Of a stretch of DNA of 53,559 bases, positions 1,927 through 37,898 are shown one piece after another. The stretch lies in the NCBI GenBank assembly GCA_003551365.1, contig PUMM01000072.1, positions 1 to 53,559 on the forward strand. The letters are read 5' to 3'. The stretch comes from Clostridia bacterium (GTDB taxonomy: Bacteria; Bacillota; Sulfobacillia; SLMV01). Position 1 is the first letter of the stretch. Each line of letters begins with the position of its first letter. The translations under genes were made by a program, and so were the position numbers. The notes beneath the pieces are model-generated. The model was not told the origin of the DNA and did not search any database. It was given only the letters and a program-made list of their open reading frames with translations.

Positions 1927-2014
1927 TTTGGGTGAACGCCTGCGCGCAGGGGGAGTGGTCCATCTGATGAACGCAAAAATTCGTTATGGCAGATGATTGC
2001 TTGGAGGGCAGTGT

Positions 2015-3094
2015 ATGCACAGGTATCCGGGATTGTCCCTGGCTGCAGTGATGATTGCGCCCCCGCTTATCGTAGGATGTGCGGAGCATGGAGTGTGTGA
2101 CGCCGCCGGTGTCGAGTGGAGAGACCGGGTAGTGACGGTGAGCGGAGAGGGAGTTGAGGAACAGGGTATCACGGTCGGTGAGCTGACCGGCATGCATGGC
2201 GTTGAACGCGAGACCTCGCGTGAGGAGGATGACCGCACGGAGACGTTCGTGGTGCAGGCCGTGACCCTGGAGGGGCTGCTGACGGAGCTGGATATCGGGG
2301 TAGAGGTGCGGAGCGTGCGGCTCCGGACGGCAGATGGTTACTCCGTGCAGGTGCTGCCGGATGTCCTGCAGCGGTCCGAGCTCATTTTTGCCTGGGAGCG
2401 GGATGGGGAGCCGCTGCCCGGGGAGTCAGGGCCGCTGCGGGCATTCATTCCCGGCGAGGAGAGCCGGTACTGGATCAGTGACCTGGCGGAAATCGAGATA
2501 TCGGCGGTGGACGAGCAGTCCACATCTGTGTCCAGTCTGCATTTTCTGGAAACTCTGGTGGCAGAGACGGCTCGCCGGCAGACTGAAAGCGGTGAGGAGG
2601 CCGTACGGACCGGCGATCTTCTCGCGGGTCTGCCTATGGGGAACGAGGTCTCTCTGGCGGCAGCGGATGGCTTTGCAAAGAATGAGGAGTATGATGTGTT
2701 CATTGGCGAATGTATCGAGCTGACTGGCGAGAGCGCCCCGGCCTTTTTGGGAGCGGATCTGCCGCGGGGCATGCACGTGCGCGACCTGGTGTGGTTCACC
2801 ACCGGTGAGGCGGCCGTTTTGTGCGTGGGACGGGCACGTGAGGTGCTCGGAGATCTGCAGGTGGAGGGAAAGACCGGGACGCCCCTGGAGGAAGCTGCGG
2901 ACGCTCTGGATATGCTAGGTGCCGCCGAGTACATTCTGGAGATGGCCGACGGCCGCACTGCAAAGATCCCCGCCGATGACCTGGGGCGGGGGATTGTCTA
3001 CATGGATGAAGAGGGAACCGCGGGTACTGTGTTCGATGGCCTGCCACACGGAACGGCAATGCAGGGAGCCCTGTCCCTGCGGGTAGCCGAATGA
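2015..3094 (+). CDS. Lipoprotein with three sulfite-oxidase-like (molybdopterin-binding type) modules
   Basis: 359 residues from ATG 2015 (SD GGAGGG, 6-base spacing); the track start at 1997 is a TTG without an SD. The N-terminus is a lipoprotein signal ending LIVGC, so the protein should be anchored outside the membrane. Three successive stretches carry the pattern seen in small Oxidored_molyb-like domains: a TADG/AADG/MADG turn followed by a conserved acidic strand. The first ends RAFIPGEESRYWISDLAEIE, close to the family's closing strand. No cysteine sits where sulfite oxidase places its Mo ligand, so enzymatic activity is doubtful and a binding role is more likely. First gene of the Moco-riboswitch operon. 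The fold call is by motif resemblance; ligand is inference. Confidence 0.7.
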   Translation: MHRYPGLSLAAVMIAPPLIVGCAEHGVCDAAGVEWRDRVVTVSGEGVEEQGITVGELTGMHGVERETSREEDDRTETFVVQAVTLEGLLTELDIGVEVRSVRLRTADGYSVQVLPDVLQRSELIFAWERDGEPLPGESGPLRAFIPGEESRYWISDLAEIEISAVDEQSTSVSSLHFLETLVAETARRQTESGEEAVRTGDLLAGLPMGNEVSLAAADGFAKNEEYDVFIGECIELTGESAPAFLGADLPRGMHVRDLVWFTTGEAAVLCVGRAREVLGDLQVEGKTGTPLEEAADALDMLGAAEYILEMADGRTAKIPADDLGRGIVYMDEEGTAGTVFDGLPHGTAMQGALSLRVAE

Positions 3095-14932: not shown

Positions 14933-15011
14933 TCCCCGCGGTCTGTGACGAACATGGGCCACCAGATCGGACGATCTGAACGGGAATGTGCGACAGAGAA
15001 CCTCGATTCTC

Positions 15012-15051
15012 CCGGACCGGACGCACCGGCAGCGAGGGTGCGCCGGTCCGG
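15012..15051 (+). terminator. Strong hairpin after spoVT
   Basis: CCGGACCGG-A-CGCACC pairs with GGTGCG-CCGGTCCGG, a 15-pair stem with one bulged A and a 9-base loop. Weak T tail (TCTGTTGGT). Likely serves spoVT and possibly the convergent DUF421 gene. Confidence 0.55.
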
Positions 15052-15202
15052 TCTGTTGGTGTCTCCGGCCGTGGGGGGTGGGCTGATGCGGGGTTATCGT
15101 CCCCCGTTGCCAGCCCGCCTGTAGCGGCTGGGGGTTTGGGGTGCGAATGCATTTGACGCACGCGATTTACTCCCGGGGCAATGCGGCGAAGGCAATATTG
15201 CC

Positions 15203-15886
15203 TCAACTCTCCCGCCGCTGCCACCAGAGGGAACCGCTGCGATCCACTGCCGCCACAAAGATCTCGCTGAGTTGAGGAGCACCTGCCTGCTGCAGCTGCC
15301 CCATCAGCCATTCCCGGTCTCTTCCCAGAGTGTGCAGGCCGTCGTAGTTGATGGTGGCATCGACTACCAGGGCGGCGGGCAGGCCCTCGGCCGGAAGGTC
15401 CATGTTGAGATCCTGCACCTGTACCGGCCGTGATTTCGTTTTGGGAATCACGCTCAAACTGCCGGACATCTCCAGAATAGCGTACTGTACATCGGGCAGG
15501 GAGGGACTCTGCTGTTGGCGCAGCTGCTCCATGAGTTCGTGCACCGTGTAGCGGGACCGACGCATGTTTCCTTCATTGATCTGTCCGTCATCGATAATCA
15601 CGGTGGGACGGCCGTTGATCAATGACATCAGTCGGGGGAACTTGATGCAGAGACAGGAGAGCACGATCTGCAGTGCTGCCAGGGTGGTCATGGGGATCAG
15701 ACCTGTCCAGACGGAAGTACGGGGATCATCGATCACGAAGACCGCCGCCTCGGCTATCATTATTGCTACGACCAGATCGAAAGGAGACAGCTGCCCGACC
15801 TCCCGCTTGCCCATGAGGCGGATCAGGATTAGGGCGACGAAGTAGAAGAGAATGGTGCGGAGAAACACGGTCAACAGGTCTTGCAC
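15203..15886 (-). CDS. DUF421 (YetF-like) membrane protein
   Basis: 227 residues from GTG 15886 (AGGTG upstream), a normal length for the family; the long track N-terminus is shadow of the SASP gene region. Three membrane segments, then the motif RLMGKREVGQLSPFDLVVAI that defines DUF421, then a soluble domain with NGRPTVIIDDGQINEGNMRR and EIFVAAVDRSGSLWWQRR. YetF-type proteins in Bacillus are spore-associated membrane proteins; YdfS/YetF shape spore membrane rigidity in newer work. Function here unproven. Confidence 0.88.
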   Translation of the reverse strand: MQDLLTVFLRTILFYFVALILIRLMGKREVGQLSPFDLVVAIMIAEAAVFVIDDPRTSVWTGLIPMTTLAALQIVLSCLCIKFPRLMSLINGRPTVIIDDGQINEGNMRRSRYTVHELMEQLRQQQSPSLPDVQYAILEMSGSLSVIPKTKSRPVQVQDLNMDLPAEGLPAALVVDATINYDGLHTLGRDREWLMGQLQQAGAPQLSEIFVAAVDRSGSLWWQRRES

Positions 15887-34416: not shown

Positions 34417-35799
34417 CTACAGGCGTCCGATCAGGACCCACCAGCTGATCTGGATCAGCACGGTGATCAGCGTTATGGCCGCCTGAGCCGGGAAGAATCG
34501 CAGGGTCTCCCGTTCGCTGAAGGCCCCGGTCTCACCCACACCAACCAGGATCATGAGATTGTGAAAGGGAAGGGCGATGCCCATGTTCGCCGTGCTGTAT
34601 ATGAGCAGTGCCGGTGCGAAGGACGGGACATCGAACTGTGCAGCCATGGCCATGAGCGGCGGCACCAGCATGGACAGGGTGGCCAGGACGCTCCCCACGA
34701 ACAGGTGCAGTACGAAGCCGGCCGCGGCCACGTAACCCAGAATGAACAGGTAGTGCTCGGATATCTGTGCCGGAAGGAGAAACTGCAGCAGCCATTCGGT
34801 GAGGCCGGTGGCCTCACTTATGGCTCCGATGGCCAGCGCGGCGGTGGCAAACAGCAGCGCGGACCAGTCCACGCCCTCCGATAGGTCCGACTCCCCCAGG
34901 ATCCCGCCTATACCGGGCAGAGCCATTCCGACCCCCACCCCCAGGGCCACCCATCCGGGATGAATGCCGTGCAGGGAGTCCGTAATCCACAAAAGAAGGG
35001 CCAGTGCAATCCAGGCCAGCACCCGCATCTCGTCGGCCGACAGACGCCCCATATCCCGCGCTTTCTTCCGCCAGGCGGCTGGATCTATGTTCAGGGGGAC
35101 CGGCTGGAAGACCAGGAGGTGGGCGCCCAGCATCAGGCCTGCTGCAGCCAGGGCGGGCACGCTCATGAGCGTTGCCCATTCCAGCCAGGAGATACCCCCG
35201 GCCAGCGATGCGGTCACCGGATTCAGGATGGCCTCGGAAGTGAGAAAGAGCATGGAGGCCGGGACCGACCCCATAAATACGCAGAACCCCAGACTGGCCC
35301 GCCCCTCCGCATCCACCCCGGATTCGCGGAGTATCTCCCACACCAGAGCCATGATGAGGAATGCGCGGGGAAAGGGGAGGGGGACCAGGGGGGCGAGGAT
35401 GAGGTTCAGACCGTATATCATTATCACCAGCTGGGTGTACGAGCGGACGTACCTGCTCACCAGACGCACGGCGATTCTGCGGGCCAGTCCAACCCGGGTC
35501 ACGCCCCGGGCGATGAGATAGGCTCCAATCATGAGCCAGGCCATGGGGGTGATCCAGAACCCGAAGAGGTCTTCCGGTGCGCCTATGCCGGTCACTGCGA
35601 AAAACAAGAGCATCGACATGGAGGTATAGGCAGGCGGTATGAGGGCCACAGCCCACCATATGACCGTCAGGAGGATGCCCACCAGGGCCACCCTGGTCTG
35701 CAGTGGCAGGCCACTGGAAGCCGTCATCCACCAGGCAATGAGCACTGCTACGGCGGACAGCAGGCCGGCCAGATGTCGCCGATCCATGTTATGTCGCAT
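34417..35799 (-). CDS. SLC13/DASS-type anion symporter
   Basis: 460 residues from ATG 35799; the track ORF's 124-residue leader is not protein-like. About 11-12 membrane segments. WWAVALIPPAYTSMSMLLFF, FGFWITPMAWLMIGAYLIA and FVGSVLATLSMLVPPLMAMA resemble the Na+/dicarboxylate or sulfate symporter (DASS) family; the C-terminal STANMGIALPFHN matches its second conserved motif. Likely substrate a di- or tricarboxylate or sulfate. The 1.2-kb region upstream carries a c-di-GMP riboswitch in the same orientation. Confidence 0.82.
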   Translation of the reverse strand: MRHNMDRRHLAGLLSAVAVLIAWWMTASSGLPLQTRVALVGILLTVIWWAVALIPPAYTSMSMLLFFAVTGIGAPEDLFGFWITPMAWLMIGAYLIARGVTRVGLARRIAVRLVSRYVRSYTQLVIMIYGLNLILAPLVPLPFPRAFLIMALVWEILRESGVDAEGRASLGFCVFMGSVPASMLFLTSEAILNPVTASLAGGISWLEWATLMSVPALAAAGLMLGAHLLVFQPVPLNIDPAAWRKKARDMGRLSADEMRVLAWIALALLLWITDSLHGIHPGWVALGVGVGMALPGIGGILGESDLSEGVDWSALLFATAALAIGAISEATGLTEWLLQFLLPAQISEHYLFILGYVAAAGFVLHLFVGSVLATLSMLVPPLMAMAAQFDVPSFAPALLIYSTANMGIALPFHNLMILVGVGETGAFSERETLRFFPAQAAITLITVLIQISWWVLIGRL

Positions 35800-36518
35800 T
35801 TCTGACCCGCCCTCTCTCGGTATCGGGATCCGTCCGGGGCGGCCGTCGCTCCTTCGCCGCGGGCAGTCATCCAGCTGAGCGACAGTCGGCCCCACCCTGT
35901 TTGAGTTCTGCGATTTGCTGCAGGTACCTGCCGAGAAGATGTGATTAGTCGTCGGGAACTGTTCCCTCCCGCTCAGCTGAGAGAGGTGGCAGGCCCGGAC
36001 ACCGGAGGGGTGTGCAGAGGTTAGAGTTTTCCGGCAGTGCGCGCCCTGCGCCCCACGGATGGGGCGAGAGGGGAAGGCGCGGCGACAGCGGAAACTGCAT
36101 TCTTGCGGCAGCTCGACGCCTCCGGTTCTGGCCGCAGAACTGGGAGCGACGCGCCGGTCGGATAGTTCCAATCCCGCGGTGCGTCGCTGGAGGGGTGAGC
36201 CGGCAGTAGAACACAGAAAATCTCGTCTCCAGTGTCCGGGTGAGGGGGTAAAGATTCTGAGATGTGACGCAGCGCATTCGTTTCCGGGAGATCCGGCAGT
36301 CCATCGCCGGGCCGCCGCACGAACGGTTCTCGGCAGCGCCGGGTTCCGCTTGTGAGGACGGAGTAACGACGGTATGACGGTCGGCCGTCAGCAGCGAGGC
36401 GGAGCTGGGGCACGACCGGTGCGGGGCCGTCATCGGCGCGAAGCTGCGCCTGGCGGCGCTCCGACCCGTATGACCACCTGCGGCATTTTGTCTTGCGATG
36501 GACTCAGGTAGCACAGCC

Positions 36519-36537
36519 GGTTCCTCCCGTAGGAACC
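36519..36537 (-). promoter_or_regulatory. Hairpin holding an SD-like sequence
   Basis: On the minus strand GGTTCCT-ACGGG-AGGAACC; the 3' arm plus loop contains GGGAGGA, 8 bases before a GTG. The ORF that would follow is not convincing. In the plus orientation the hairpin is followed after a bulge by TTTT, so it could end a plus-strand transcript. Confidence 0.35.
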
Positions 36538-36579
36538 GAGGCCGGCCTTTTCCGCGTGGTTGCGCAGCCTGTAACGAGT

Positions 36580-36604
36580 AAAAGCGAGCCGATTCTAGTT
36601 CGGC
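36580..36604 (-). terminator. Putative terminator of the c-di-GMP riboswitch
   Basis: Minus strand: GCCGA (36604-36600), loop, TCGGC (36592-36588), then TTTT at 36583-36580. The 5' arm reuses bases of the aptamer's last stem, so aptamer and terminator exclude one another. Confidence 0.5.
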
Positions 36605-36690
36605 AGCCCGGCCATCCCTGCCCTCTGGGCTCAGGATCCGCAGCTTTGCGTCCGCACCTTGCGATGCGTTTGCCTTTATCGCTGGAAGCG
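36598..36690 (-). promoter_or_regulatory. Cyclic di-GMP-I (GEMM-I) riboswitch
   Basis: Minus strand reads GGCAAAC, then stem GCATC-GCAA-GGTGC with a GNRA tetraloop, then GGACGCAAAGC, CCTGAG (tetraloop-receptor position), and a second stem GGCAG...CTGCC with GGCCGGG. These are the conserved blocks of GEMM-I in the right order and spacing. It senses c-di-GMP and controls motility, surface and transport genes. The nearest same-strand gene is the SLC13 transporter about 800 bases downstream. Confidence 0.87.
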
Positions 36691-36768
36691 ACCCGCCTCG
36701 GGTCCCCAATTGCTCTGTACGTCTAACATGATATCTGAGATTTACTGCCCGGGCAAGGCGGAGGCGGC

Positions 36769-36774: not shown

Positions 36775-36977
36775 TGCGAAATACGTTGCCCGGCGTCCGC
36801 GCGGTGGCGCAAATCGTCGGGATGCCCGTCGTCGGGGCGGTGCGGTCTCCGTCGATGCGCGTCATTTGCTGCCCAAAGCCCGGAAACTCCGCTGCATCTT
36901 GTGTATTGGCCTTTTTTGAAATATGGTCATGATAGGTAATGATCCCACGTCTGGATGCGAGAAAGGGGCTGAGTGTC

Positions 36978-37898
36978 ATGTATGATGTGATTATCGTCGG
37001 TGGTGGGCCGGGAGGGCTCACGGCCGCTATATACACCAGCAGGGCCGGGTGGAATACCGCAGTCCTGGAGAAGGAGATGCCCGGCGGGCTAATGGCCAGC
37101 ACAGACGTTATCGAGAACTGGCCGGGGCGCCCGGCGGTCAGCGGGGCAGAACTGGCGGAGGATTTCCGGGAGCACGCGGAGCGTTTTGGGGCCGAACTGG
37201 TCATGGATGAGGCCCAGTCGCTCGACATCTCGTCTGAGGTGAAAACCGTTCGTGGGGCGGCTGGAGAGTATTCTGGCCGAGCACTGGTTCTGGCCACTGG
37301 TTCTGCCCCCCGCACCCTGGGAGTTCCCGGGGAGGCGAGGTTGACCGGCCGCGGCGTTTCGTACTGTGCTACATGCGACGGTGCCTTCTTCGGTGGGAAG
37401 GAAGTGGCCTGTGTGGGCGGGGGCGACGCGGCCGTGCAGGAGGCGTTATTCCTCACTCGTTTCGCCAGTAAGGTCTATCTCATTCACCGGCGGGATGAGC
37501 TCCGCGCTGTACAGGCTCTGCAGGAGCGTCTCTTCGCCAGTGAGCAGATCGAGGTCGTCTGGAATTCCGTGGTCGAGGAGATCATGGGAGACGAGAGCGT
37601 GACCGGTCTGCAGGTTCACAATGTGACGGTGGGACAGAGCAGGGAACTGCCGGTATCCGGAGTGTTCATATATGTGGGACACCGCCCCGCCACCGGGTTC
37701 GTGTCGGGCGAACTGGAGCTGGACGCCGATGGATACATAAAGGCAGATGAGGATCTGGGGACCTCCGTGCCCGGCGTATTTGCCGTTGGCGATGTCAGAC
37801 ACCGGCTGCAGAGGCAGATTGCCACGGCGGTGGGAGACGGGGCTACCGCAGCCATGGCCATTGAGGAGTACTTCAACCAGACGACTGCAGGGCGGTAG
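36978..37898 (+). CDS. trxB: Thioredoxin reductase
   Basis: 306 residues from ATG 36978. FAD motif IIVGGGPGGLTAA (5-17), redox-active CATC (130-133), NADPH motif GGGDAAVQEALFL with the HRR (170-172) that binds the NADPH phosphate, and the closing GVFAVGDVRHRLQRQIATAVGDGATAA. Complete and of normal length. Keeps thioredoxin reduced; no trxA gene is adjacent. Confidence 0.96.
   Translation: MYDVIIVGGGPGGLTAAIYTSRAGWNTAVLEKEMPGGLMASTDVIENWPGRPAVSGAELAEDFREHAERFGAELVMDEAQSLDISSEVKTVRGAAGEYSGRALVLATGSAPRTLGVPGEARLTGRGVSYCATCDGAFFGGKEVACVGGGDAAVQEALFLTRFASKVYLIHRRDELRAVQALQERLFASEQIEVVWNSVVEEIMGDESVTGLQVHNVTVGQSRELPVSGVFIYVGHRPATGFVSGELELDADGYIKADEDLGTSVPGVFAVGDVRHRLQRQIATAVGDGATAAMAIEEYFNQTTAGR

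Follow-up and report, generated by a model that had tools for sequence, protein, structure and literature searches.

A c-di-GMP-I riboswitch separated from an SLC13 transporter gene by a long, conserved and probably structured noncoding leader

What does a c-di-GMP riboswitch control if the next gene on its strand begins only about 800 nt further on? We addressed this question for a locus in the window, i.e., the whole stretch of 53,559 nt that was analyzed. The original prediction had placed a GEMM-I riboswitch without an obvious target on the minus strand, leaving two options: either the transporter gene downstream has a very long leader, or an unrecognised RNA or gene lies in between. Overall, the riboswitch itself is ordinary, whereas the conserved noncoding leader behind it is unusual. 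Conserved long stretches between a riboswitch and its gene have seldom been examined. The locus is framed by three elements:

36599 to 36684, minus strand: c-di-GMP-I (GEMM-I) riboswitch aptamer
34417 to 35799, minus strand: SLC13 family (Na_sulph_symp / CitMHS) transporter, the next same-strand gene (PF00939, 87.6 bits)
36939 to 37898, plus strand: thioredoxin-reductase-like pyridine nucleotide-disulphide oxidoreductase (trxB), the divergent neighbour (PF07992, 176.8 bits)

Covariance models confirmed both the class and the strand. The Rfam search that had been suggested as a check matched RF01051 (c-di-GMP-I) at 36684-36599 on the minus strand with 71.4 bits, well over the cut-off of 35, and cmscan additionally matched RF03167 (c-di-GMP-I-GGC) at 36683-36598 on the same strand (67.0 bits, E 9.7e-14, cut-off 59). 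In the model alignment, the GCAAAG block of the window carries A47 where the RF03167 consensus has G, and GCAAAG is present in all eight c-di-GMP-I copies of the genome. RF03167 was rejected as the true class because A47 is kept and the raw RF01051 score is higher; by its sequence, the aptamer is a canonical c-di-GMP-I riboswitch. Alignment to the family copies placed the ligand-contact residues G20, A47, and C92 (numbered as in the Vc2 aptamer, which we take to apply here) in AAAGGC, GCAAAG, and GCCGAA, and the predicted ligand is c-di-GMP. An A at position 20 marks cGAMP-sensing GEMM-Ib riboswitches; position 20 of the present aptamer is G. A copy from a relative (L128; G003:C9:7942-7857, minus strand), located 5' of a transglutaminase-like gene, has AAGAGC in place of the AAGGGC or AAAGGC found in the others, and thereby A at position 20. 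P2 is capped by the GNRA loop GCAA (36662-36659), as originally described, while the accompanying claim of a receptor position was only partly right, since the UAAG-type receptor side in P3 (GAUCUAAGGCC in the sister copies) is altered to GAUCCUGAGCC in the window. Elsewhere in the window, at 1762-1895 on the plus strand, a Molybdenum cofactor riboswitch (RF01055, 65.6 bits) lies ~100 nt 5' of an ORF (1997-3094) that encodes a molybdopterin-binding oxidoreductase domain.

Four further elements surround the aptamer:

36580 to 36604, minus strand: intrinsic-terminator-like hairpin GCCGA/UCGGC with U-run, overlapping the aptamer 3' end
36692 to 36696, minus strand: upstream strand GCGGG, which can pair with the terminator 3' strand CUCGC (36588-36584) and thereby close the whole aptamer
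36678 to 36692, minus strand: possible leader hairpin GUCGCU-UCC-AGCGAU, overlapping the P1 5' strand (minimum free energy (MFE) folds of several copies and sequence inspection)
36728 to 36756, minus strand: weak sigma-70-like promoter TTGCCC-17-TATCAT upstream of the riboswitch (consensus scan, 9/12 matches)

The terminator-like hairpin (GCCGA-ACUAGAA-UCGGC, 36604-36588) is followed by UCGCUUUU and the U-run to 36580, and thus has the layout of an intrinsic terminator platform, a GC-rich hairpin and U-run overlapping the aptamer. It takes up the P1/C92 side and is extendable into the base of P3. The sister species G001 carries the same hairpin at the same place, likewise over the C92 strand. 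The alternative terminator reusing the last aptamer stem was foreseen correctly. In 14 family copies (the present one and 13 others), GCGGG, GCGAG, or a close form precedes the aptamer, and the strand directly before the U-run is CCCG/CCGC or CUCG. The resulting outer helix contains standard pairs in 66 of 70 cells (14 copies with five pairs each) and two-sided changes (G-C to A-U) in two of the five pairs, a count biased towards the helix, since the pairing register of each 3' strand was chosen manually. Because it surrounds the aptamer and has bases in common with the terminator, the outer helix is a candidate anti-terminator; abutting the U-run, it could in principle itself terminate instead. 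Formation of the terminator likewise uses up the CCG that contains C92, so that a bound ligand should counteract termination, and the riboswitch is probably an ON switch. The consensus scan yielded no comparable promoter upstream of the riboswitch in G001, and none between 36580 and SLC13 in the window.

The genome, 86% complete at 2.78 Mb in 201 contigs, encodes 14 GGDEF hits, and its other c-di-GMP-I copies are mostly located 5' of flagellar, pilus, and surface-protein genes. The genes downstream of the copies, read from ORFs and named by sequence inspection instead of family search, include flagellar rod proteins (FlgB, FlgF/G type), type IV pilin-like and TasA-like proteins, a transglutaminase-like secreted protein, a beta-helix surface protein, and a PilB/GspE-like ATPase behind a zinc-ribbon protein. 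This set of riboswitch targets and GGDEF enzymes is a normal c-di-GMP regulon. At least one c-di-GMP-I copy was found in 59 of the 61 genomes of the relatives search, this genome included, and the aptamer-to-gene distance in the family is mostly ~40-300 nt, with a few distances of 400-1030 nt. The riboswitches of the beta-helix surface proteins in this genome (L119) and in G001 (L124) also have long leaders (~400-440 nt), but, in contrast to the SLC13 leader, their sequences are not similar in the two species. Locus L119 further contains a match to group II intron D1-D4 (RF02001, 62.9 bits; 2039-1890, minus strand) ~2.8 kb downstream of its c-di-GMP-I riboswitch. Two species from a sister genus combine a c-di-GMP-I riboswitch with a c-di-GMP-II match further along the same ~1-kb leader (L141, 3470-3561 and 4329-4412, plus strand; L146, 1488-1400 and 952-868, minus strand), and ~130 identical noncoding bases then lie directly 5' of a secreted-protein ORF. 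Both c-di-GMP-II matches (52.5 and 36.1 bits) stay below the cut-off of 53.5, and the arrangement may be a tandem that unites the two classes of c-di-GMP riboswitch.

Against the family distances, the 800 nt between the aptamer end and the SLC13 ATG (35799) are as unusual as originally noted. The order of trxB (divergent), riboswitch, gap, and SLC13 is identical in G001, where the distance is 799 nt and where the syntenic SLC13 and trxB relatives have 76% and 82% identity, respectively. The description of a riboswitch with no obvious target is thereby softened, SLC13 being the syntenic downstream gene in both species. A divergent, trxB-adjacent c-di-GMP-I riboswitch in G006 (L139, contig C86) sits directly 5' of a transglutaminase-like gene; as the transglutaminase-like gene has its own riboswitch elsewhere in this genome (G000) and in G001, the gene behind the trxB-adjacent riboswitch has been exchanged. 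Within the gap, the following parts are conserved between the two species:

35900 to 36583, minus strand: conserved noncoding C-rich leader RNA, probably structured (identity to G001:C51:16890-16190; folding z scores)
36227 to 36253, minus strand: most conserved island, C-rich, CTTTACCCCCTCACCCGGACAC(T/C)GGAG (26 of 27 bases identical in G001)

BLASTN aligned the gap with that of G001, the only congener compared, in blocks of 67-74% identity. A global alignment gave an identity of ~57% across the leader and of 70-78% in the SLC13 coding DNA; the noncoding DNA to either side of the leader was less similar, with ~40% on the trxB side of the riboswitch and ~37% in the 100 nt that adjoin the SLC13 start. 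The 57% background of the leader, a value from two sequences, is interspersed with islands of 90-100% identity (BLASTN). The 21-mer core of the strongest island is unique within each congener genome and, with up to two mismatches allowed, absent from 59 other relatives.

This conservation does not look like that of a protein-coding region. The gap of G001 contains three to six stops in every sense frame, indels in the gap alignment are mostly not multiples of three, and a six-frame comparison showed protein-level similarity spread over mismatched frames, as DNA similarity alone predicts. Furthermore, blastx detected no similarity between the gap and the ORFs of the compared loci. On these grounds, a hidden gene or pseudogene was rejected, which narrows the original either/or: the gene is unlikely, and the noncoding side gains from the conserved noncoding stretch found in the gap. 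Because this stretch is kept without protein code in the sister species, the leader is probably an uncharacterised regulatory RNA. With SLC13 syntenic at 799/800 nt in both species, a very long SLC13 leader is the leading reading, which does not exclude an unrecognised RNA lying within it.

Searches for homologues confined the leader to the two congeners. Rfam families gave only chance-level matches (E up to 10) in both species, and none of the 152 other genomes of the class contained a leader homologue. Only G000 and G001 stood above chance in a DNA BLAST against 154 class and 399 phylum genomes and in a pattern search of relatives and viral contigs, and a 172-column covariance model built on the 3' segment (R1) likewise found only these two among the 154 class genomes. 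The SLC13 protein had a single distant archaeal match among the genome contigs searched. The contigs of SLC13 relatives in G004 and G007 end within the 5' part of the gene, and the comparison therefore does not include their leaders.

The leader folds more stably than expected, and does so on one strand. Relative to dinucleotide shuffles, the MFE z scores of the riboswitch strand were -3.85 (window) and -3.72 (G001), those of the antisense strand -1.5 and -2.2. Random 684-nt segments of the two congener genomes (n = 84) had a mean z of -0.63 (sd 1.30), with 2/84 at or below -3.7. This is the strand-specific excess foldability by which a large structured RNA may be recognised. The most foldable background segment, window positions 14967-15651 on the plus strand (z -5.5 and -6.25), contains several long GC-rich hairpins, the strongest of which is intergenic and adjoins a DUF421 (YetF-like) gene. 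The two-species consensus fold of the leader reached z -5.2 (-5.6 in a second run), and none of 100 column shuffles was as stable; eight control alignments ranged from -2.85 to +2.5. RNAalifold and the consensus fold propose the following parts:

36285 to 36529, minus strand: proposed domain I, a long-range 21-bp helix (arms 36529-36495 / 36307-36285; RNAalifold, two species)
35994 to 36240, minus strand: proposed domain II, a 13-bp long-range helix (arms 36240-36227 / 36007-35994, CCCGGACACUGGAG / CUCCGGUGUCCGGG)
35927 to 35993, minus strand: proposed domain III, CCUGCC (35993-35988) / GGCAGG (35932-35927), both arms invariant (consensus fold)
36040 to 36081, minus strand: proposed hairpin (consensus fold)

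The arms of domain I pair CGGGAGG with CUCCCG, CCGGC with GCCGG, and CCAUCGC with GCGAUGG, and contain one two-sided change (CCGGC/GCCGG to CCGAC/GUCGG) with no pair broken. The domain II helix appears in the MFE folds of both species as well as in the consensus, and is also readable as an inverted repeat of the DNA. Covariation was rejected as proof of the fold: the 13 two-sided changes, counted between two sequences only, fall below the number obtained by shuffling the alignment (22 +/- 3), and the 38 long-range pairs lie within the shuffled range (29 +/- 9). The trxB coding alignment, too, contains conserved helices of comparable length. With neither two-sided changes nor long-range pairs in excess, the case for structure is energetic and strand-specific rather than covariational, and the leader is probably structured.

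From these observations, we favour a single message of riboswitch, long conserved leader, and SLC13, in which the leader forms a second layer of control, and give this reading an even chance of being correct. Binding of c-di-GMP would hold the P1/C92 strand, which would prevent the terminator hairpin (36604-36580) and let the polymerase run on. Read-through would produce the ~680-nt conserved, untranslated, C-rich, probably structured leader and then SLC13, with structure and/or attenuation acting between riboswitch and start codon. Both the co-transcription of the leader with SLC13 and its regulatory function are deduced from sequence. The model agrees with the presence of c-di-GMP enzymes (GGDEF) and Rho in the genome. 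Against it, SLC13 is, to our knowledge, not a usual c-di-GMP target, and conservation falls in the 100 nt adjoining the gene, which would not be expected of a leader acting on the translation start.

The main alternative to a single SLC13 transcript, which we regard as possible yet rather unlikely, is an independent noncoding RNA under riboswitch control: ~0.7-0.8 kb long, it would consist of the aptamer and a structured body, end near 35900, and act in trans or store c-di-GMP, as proposed for Bdellovibrio merRNA, while SLC13 would have its own promoter. The stop of conservation ~100 nt short of SLC13, the sense-strand foldability in both species, and the lack of a conserved ORF in the gap agree with such an RNA, for which merRNA offers a precedent (PMC3627812). 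However, neither species has a terminator at the 3' end of the RNA, no consensus promoter precedes SLC13, and the position and spacing of the gene are the same in both. We grant a similarly small probability to the proposal that 36583-35900 represents a new class of large, multi-domain structured RNA, whose synthesis would require c-di-GMP to open the riboswitch and which would act either in cis on SLC13 or in trans.

Slightly less probable in our view, Rho-dependent attenuation could be the chief role of the leader: Rho would end transcription in the C-rich untranslated region unless opposed, and no elaborate fold would be needed. The mechanism is a live one, since the leader is rich in C (36% vs. 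28% G in both species), Rho is encoded in the genome, and the flgB leader of C. difficile is subject to Rho action 3' of a c-di-GMP riboswitch (PMC7446863). Stretches of C over G also match by position between the species (for instance, 0.46/0.23 and 0.41/0.18 at one shared offset). The sense strand, however, folds more stably than its composition predicts, which is the opposite of an open rut site, and rut sites have a poor consensus.

It also seems unlikely, and somewhat more so, that the gap holds the remains of a gene or operon, with an orphaned riboswitch and a residual similarity from common descent. The exchange of the gene behind the trxB-adjacent riboswitch, deduced above from G006, fits this reading. 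Two features do not, namely islands with 90-100% identity on a background of 57% and a spacing kept to one base, and the gap resembles neither the ORFs of the compared loci nor the transglutaminase family found behind the G006 riboswitch (protein and nucleotide HMMs). Very improbably, the domain II arms are recombination sites of an invertible DNA segment: these 14-nt repeats (one mismatch, 220 bp apart) are conserved in G001 and their layout resembles the C. difficile flagellar switch (PMC5386303), but they are short, have the same orientation in both species, and would not need strand-specific foldability as a DNA element.

Compared to known systems, the riboswitch itself shares with RF01051 the aptamer fold, the GNRA loop, G20, A47, the C92 region, and a terminator expression platform. 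It differs by its GCAA instead of GAAA loop, the altered receptor, the upstream strand pairing with the terminator 3' strand, and a next gene 800 nt away; RF03167 overlaps as a model match, but its consensus G in place of A47 is missing. The leader resembles OLE RNA and other large bacterial structured RNAs in its length class (~0.6-0.7 kb) and noncoding conservation, while differing from them by having no Rfam match even at E 10, occurrence in one genus only, and no known partner protein. Like the 445-nt merRNA, which holds a c-di-GMP riboswitch, lacks a conserved downstream ORF, and is lineage-restricted (PMC3627812), it would place a c-di-GMP riboswitch inside a longer noncoding RNA confined to one lineage; the locus described here differs in having a syntenic downstream gene, and expression is known for merRNA. 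In the C. difficile flgB leader, a c-di-GMP-I riboswitch is likewise followed by hundreds of untranslated nucleotides with inverted repeats before the first gene (PMC5386303, PMC7446863), and the flagellar switch (154 bp, 21-bp repeats) lies between riboswitch and flgB (PMC5386303). There, the distance is 338 nt, the target is a flagellar operon, inversion has been shown, and the riboswitch (Cd1) is an OFF switch; here, the distance is about 780 nt and the gene is a transporter. Should the SLC13 leader prove functional, control by c-di-GMP would extend either to a transporter, by way of a leader with two layers, or to a separate large RNA, and the locus would add to the few known cases represented by merRNA and the C. 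difficile flgB leader.
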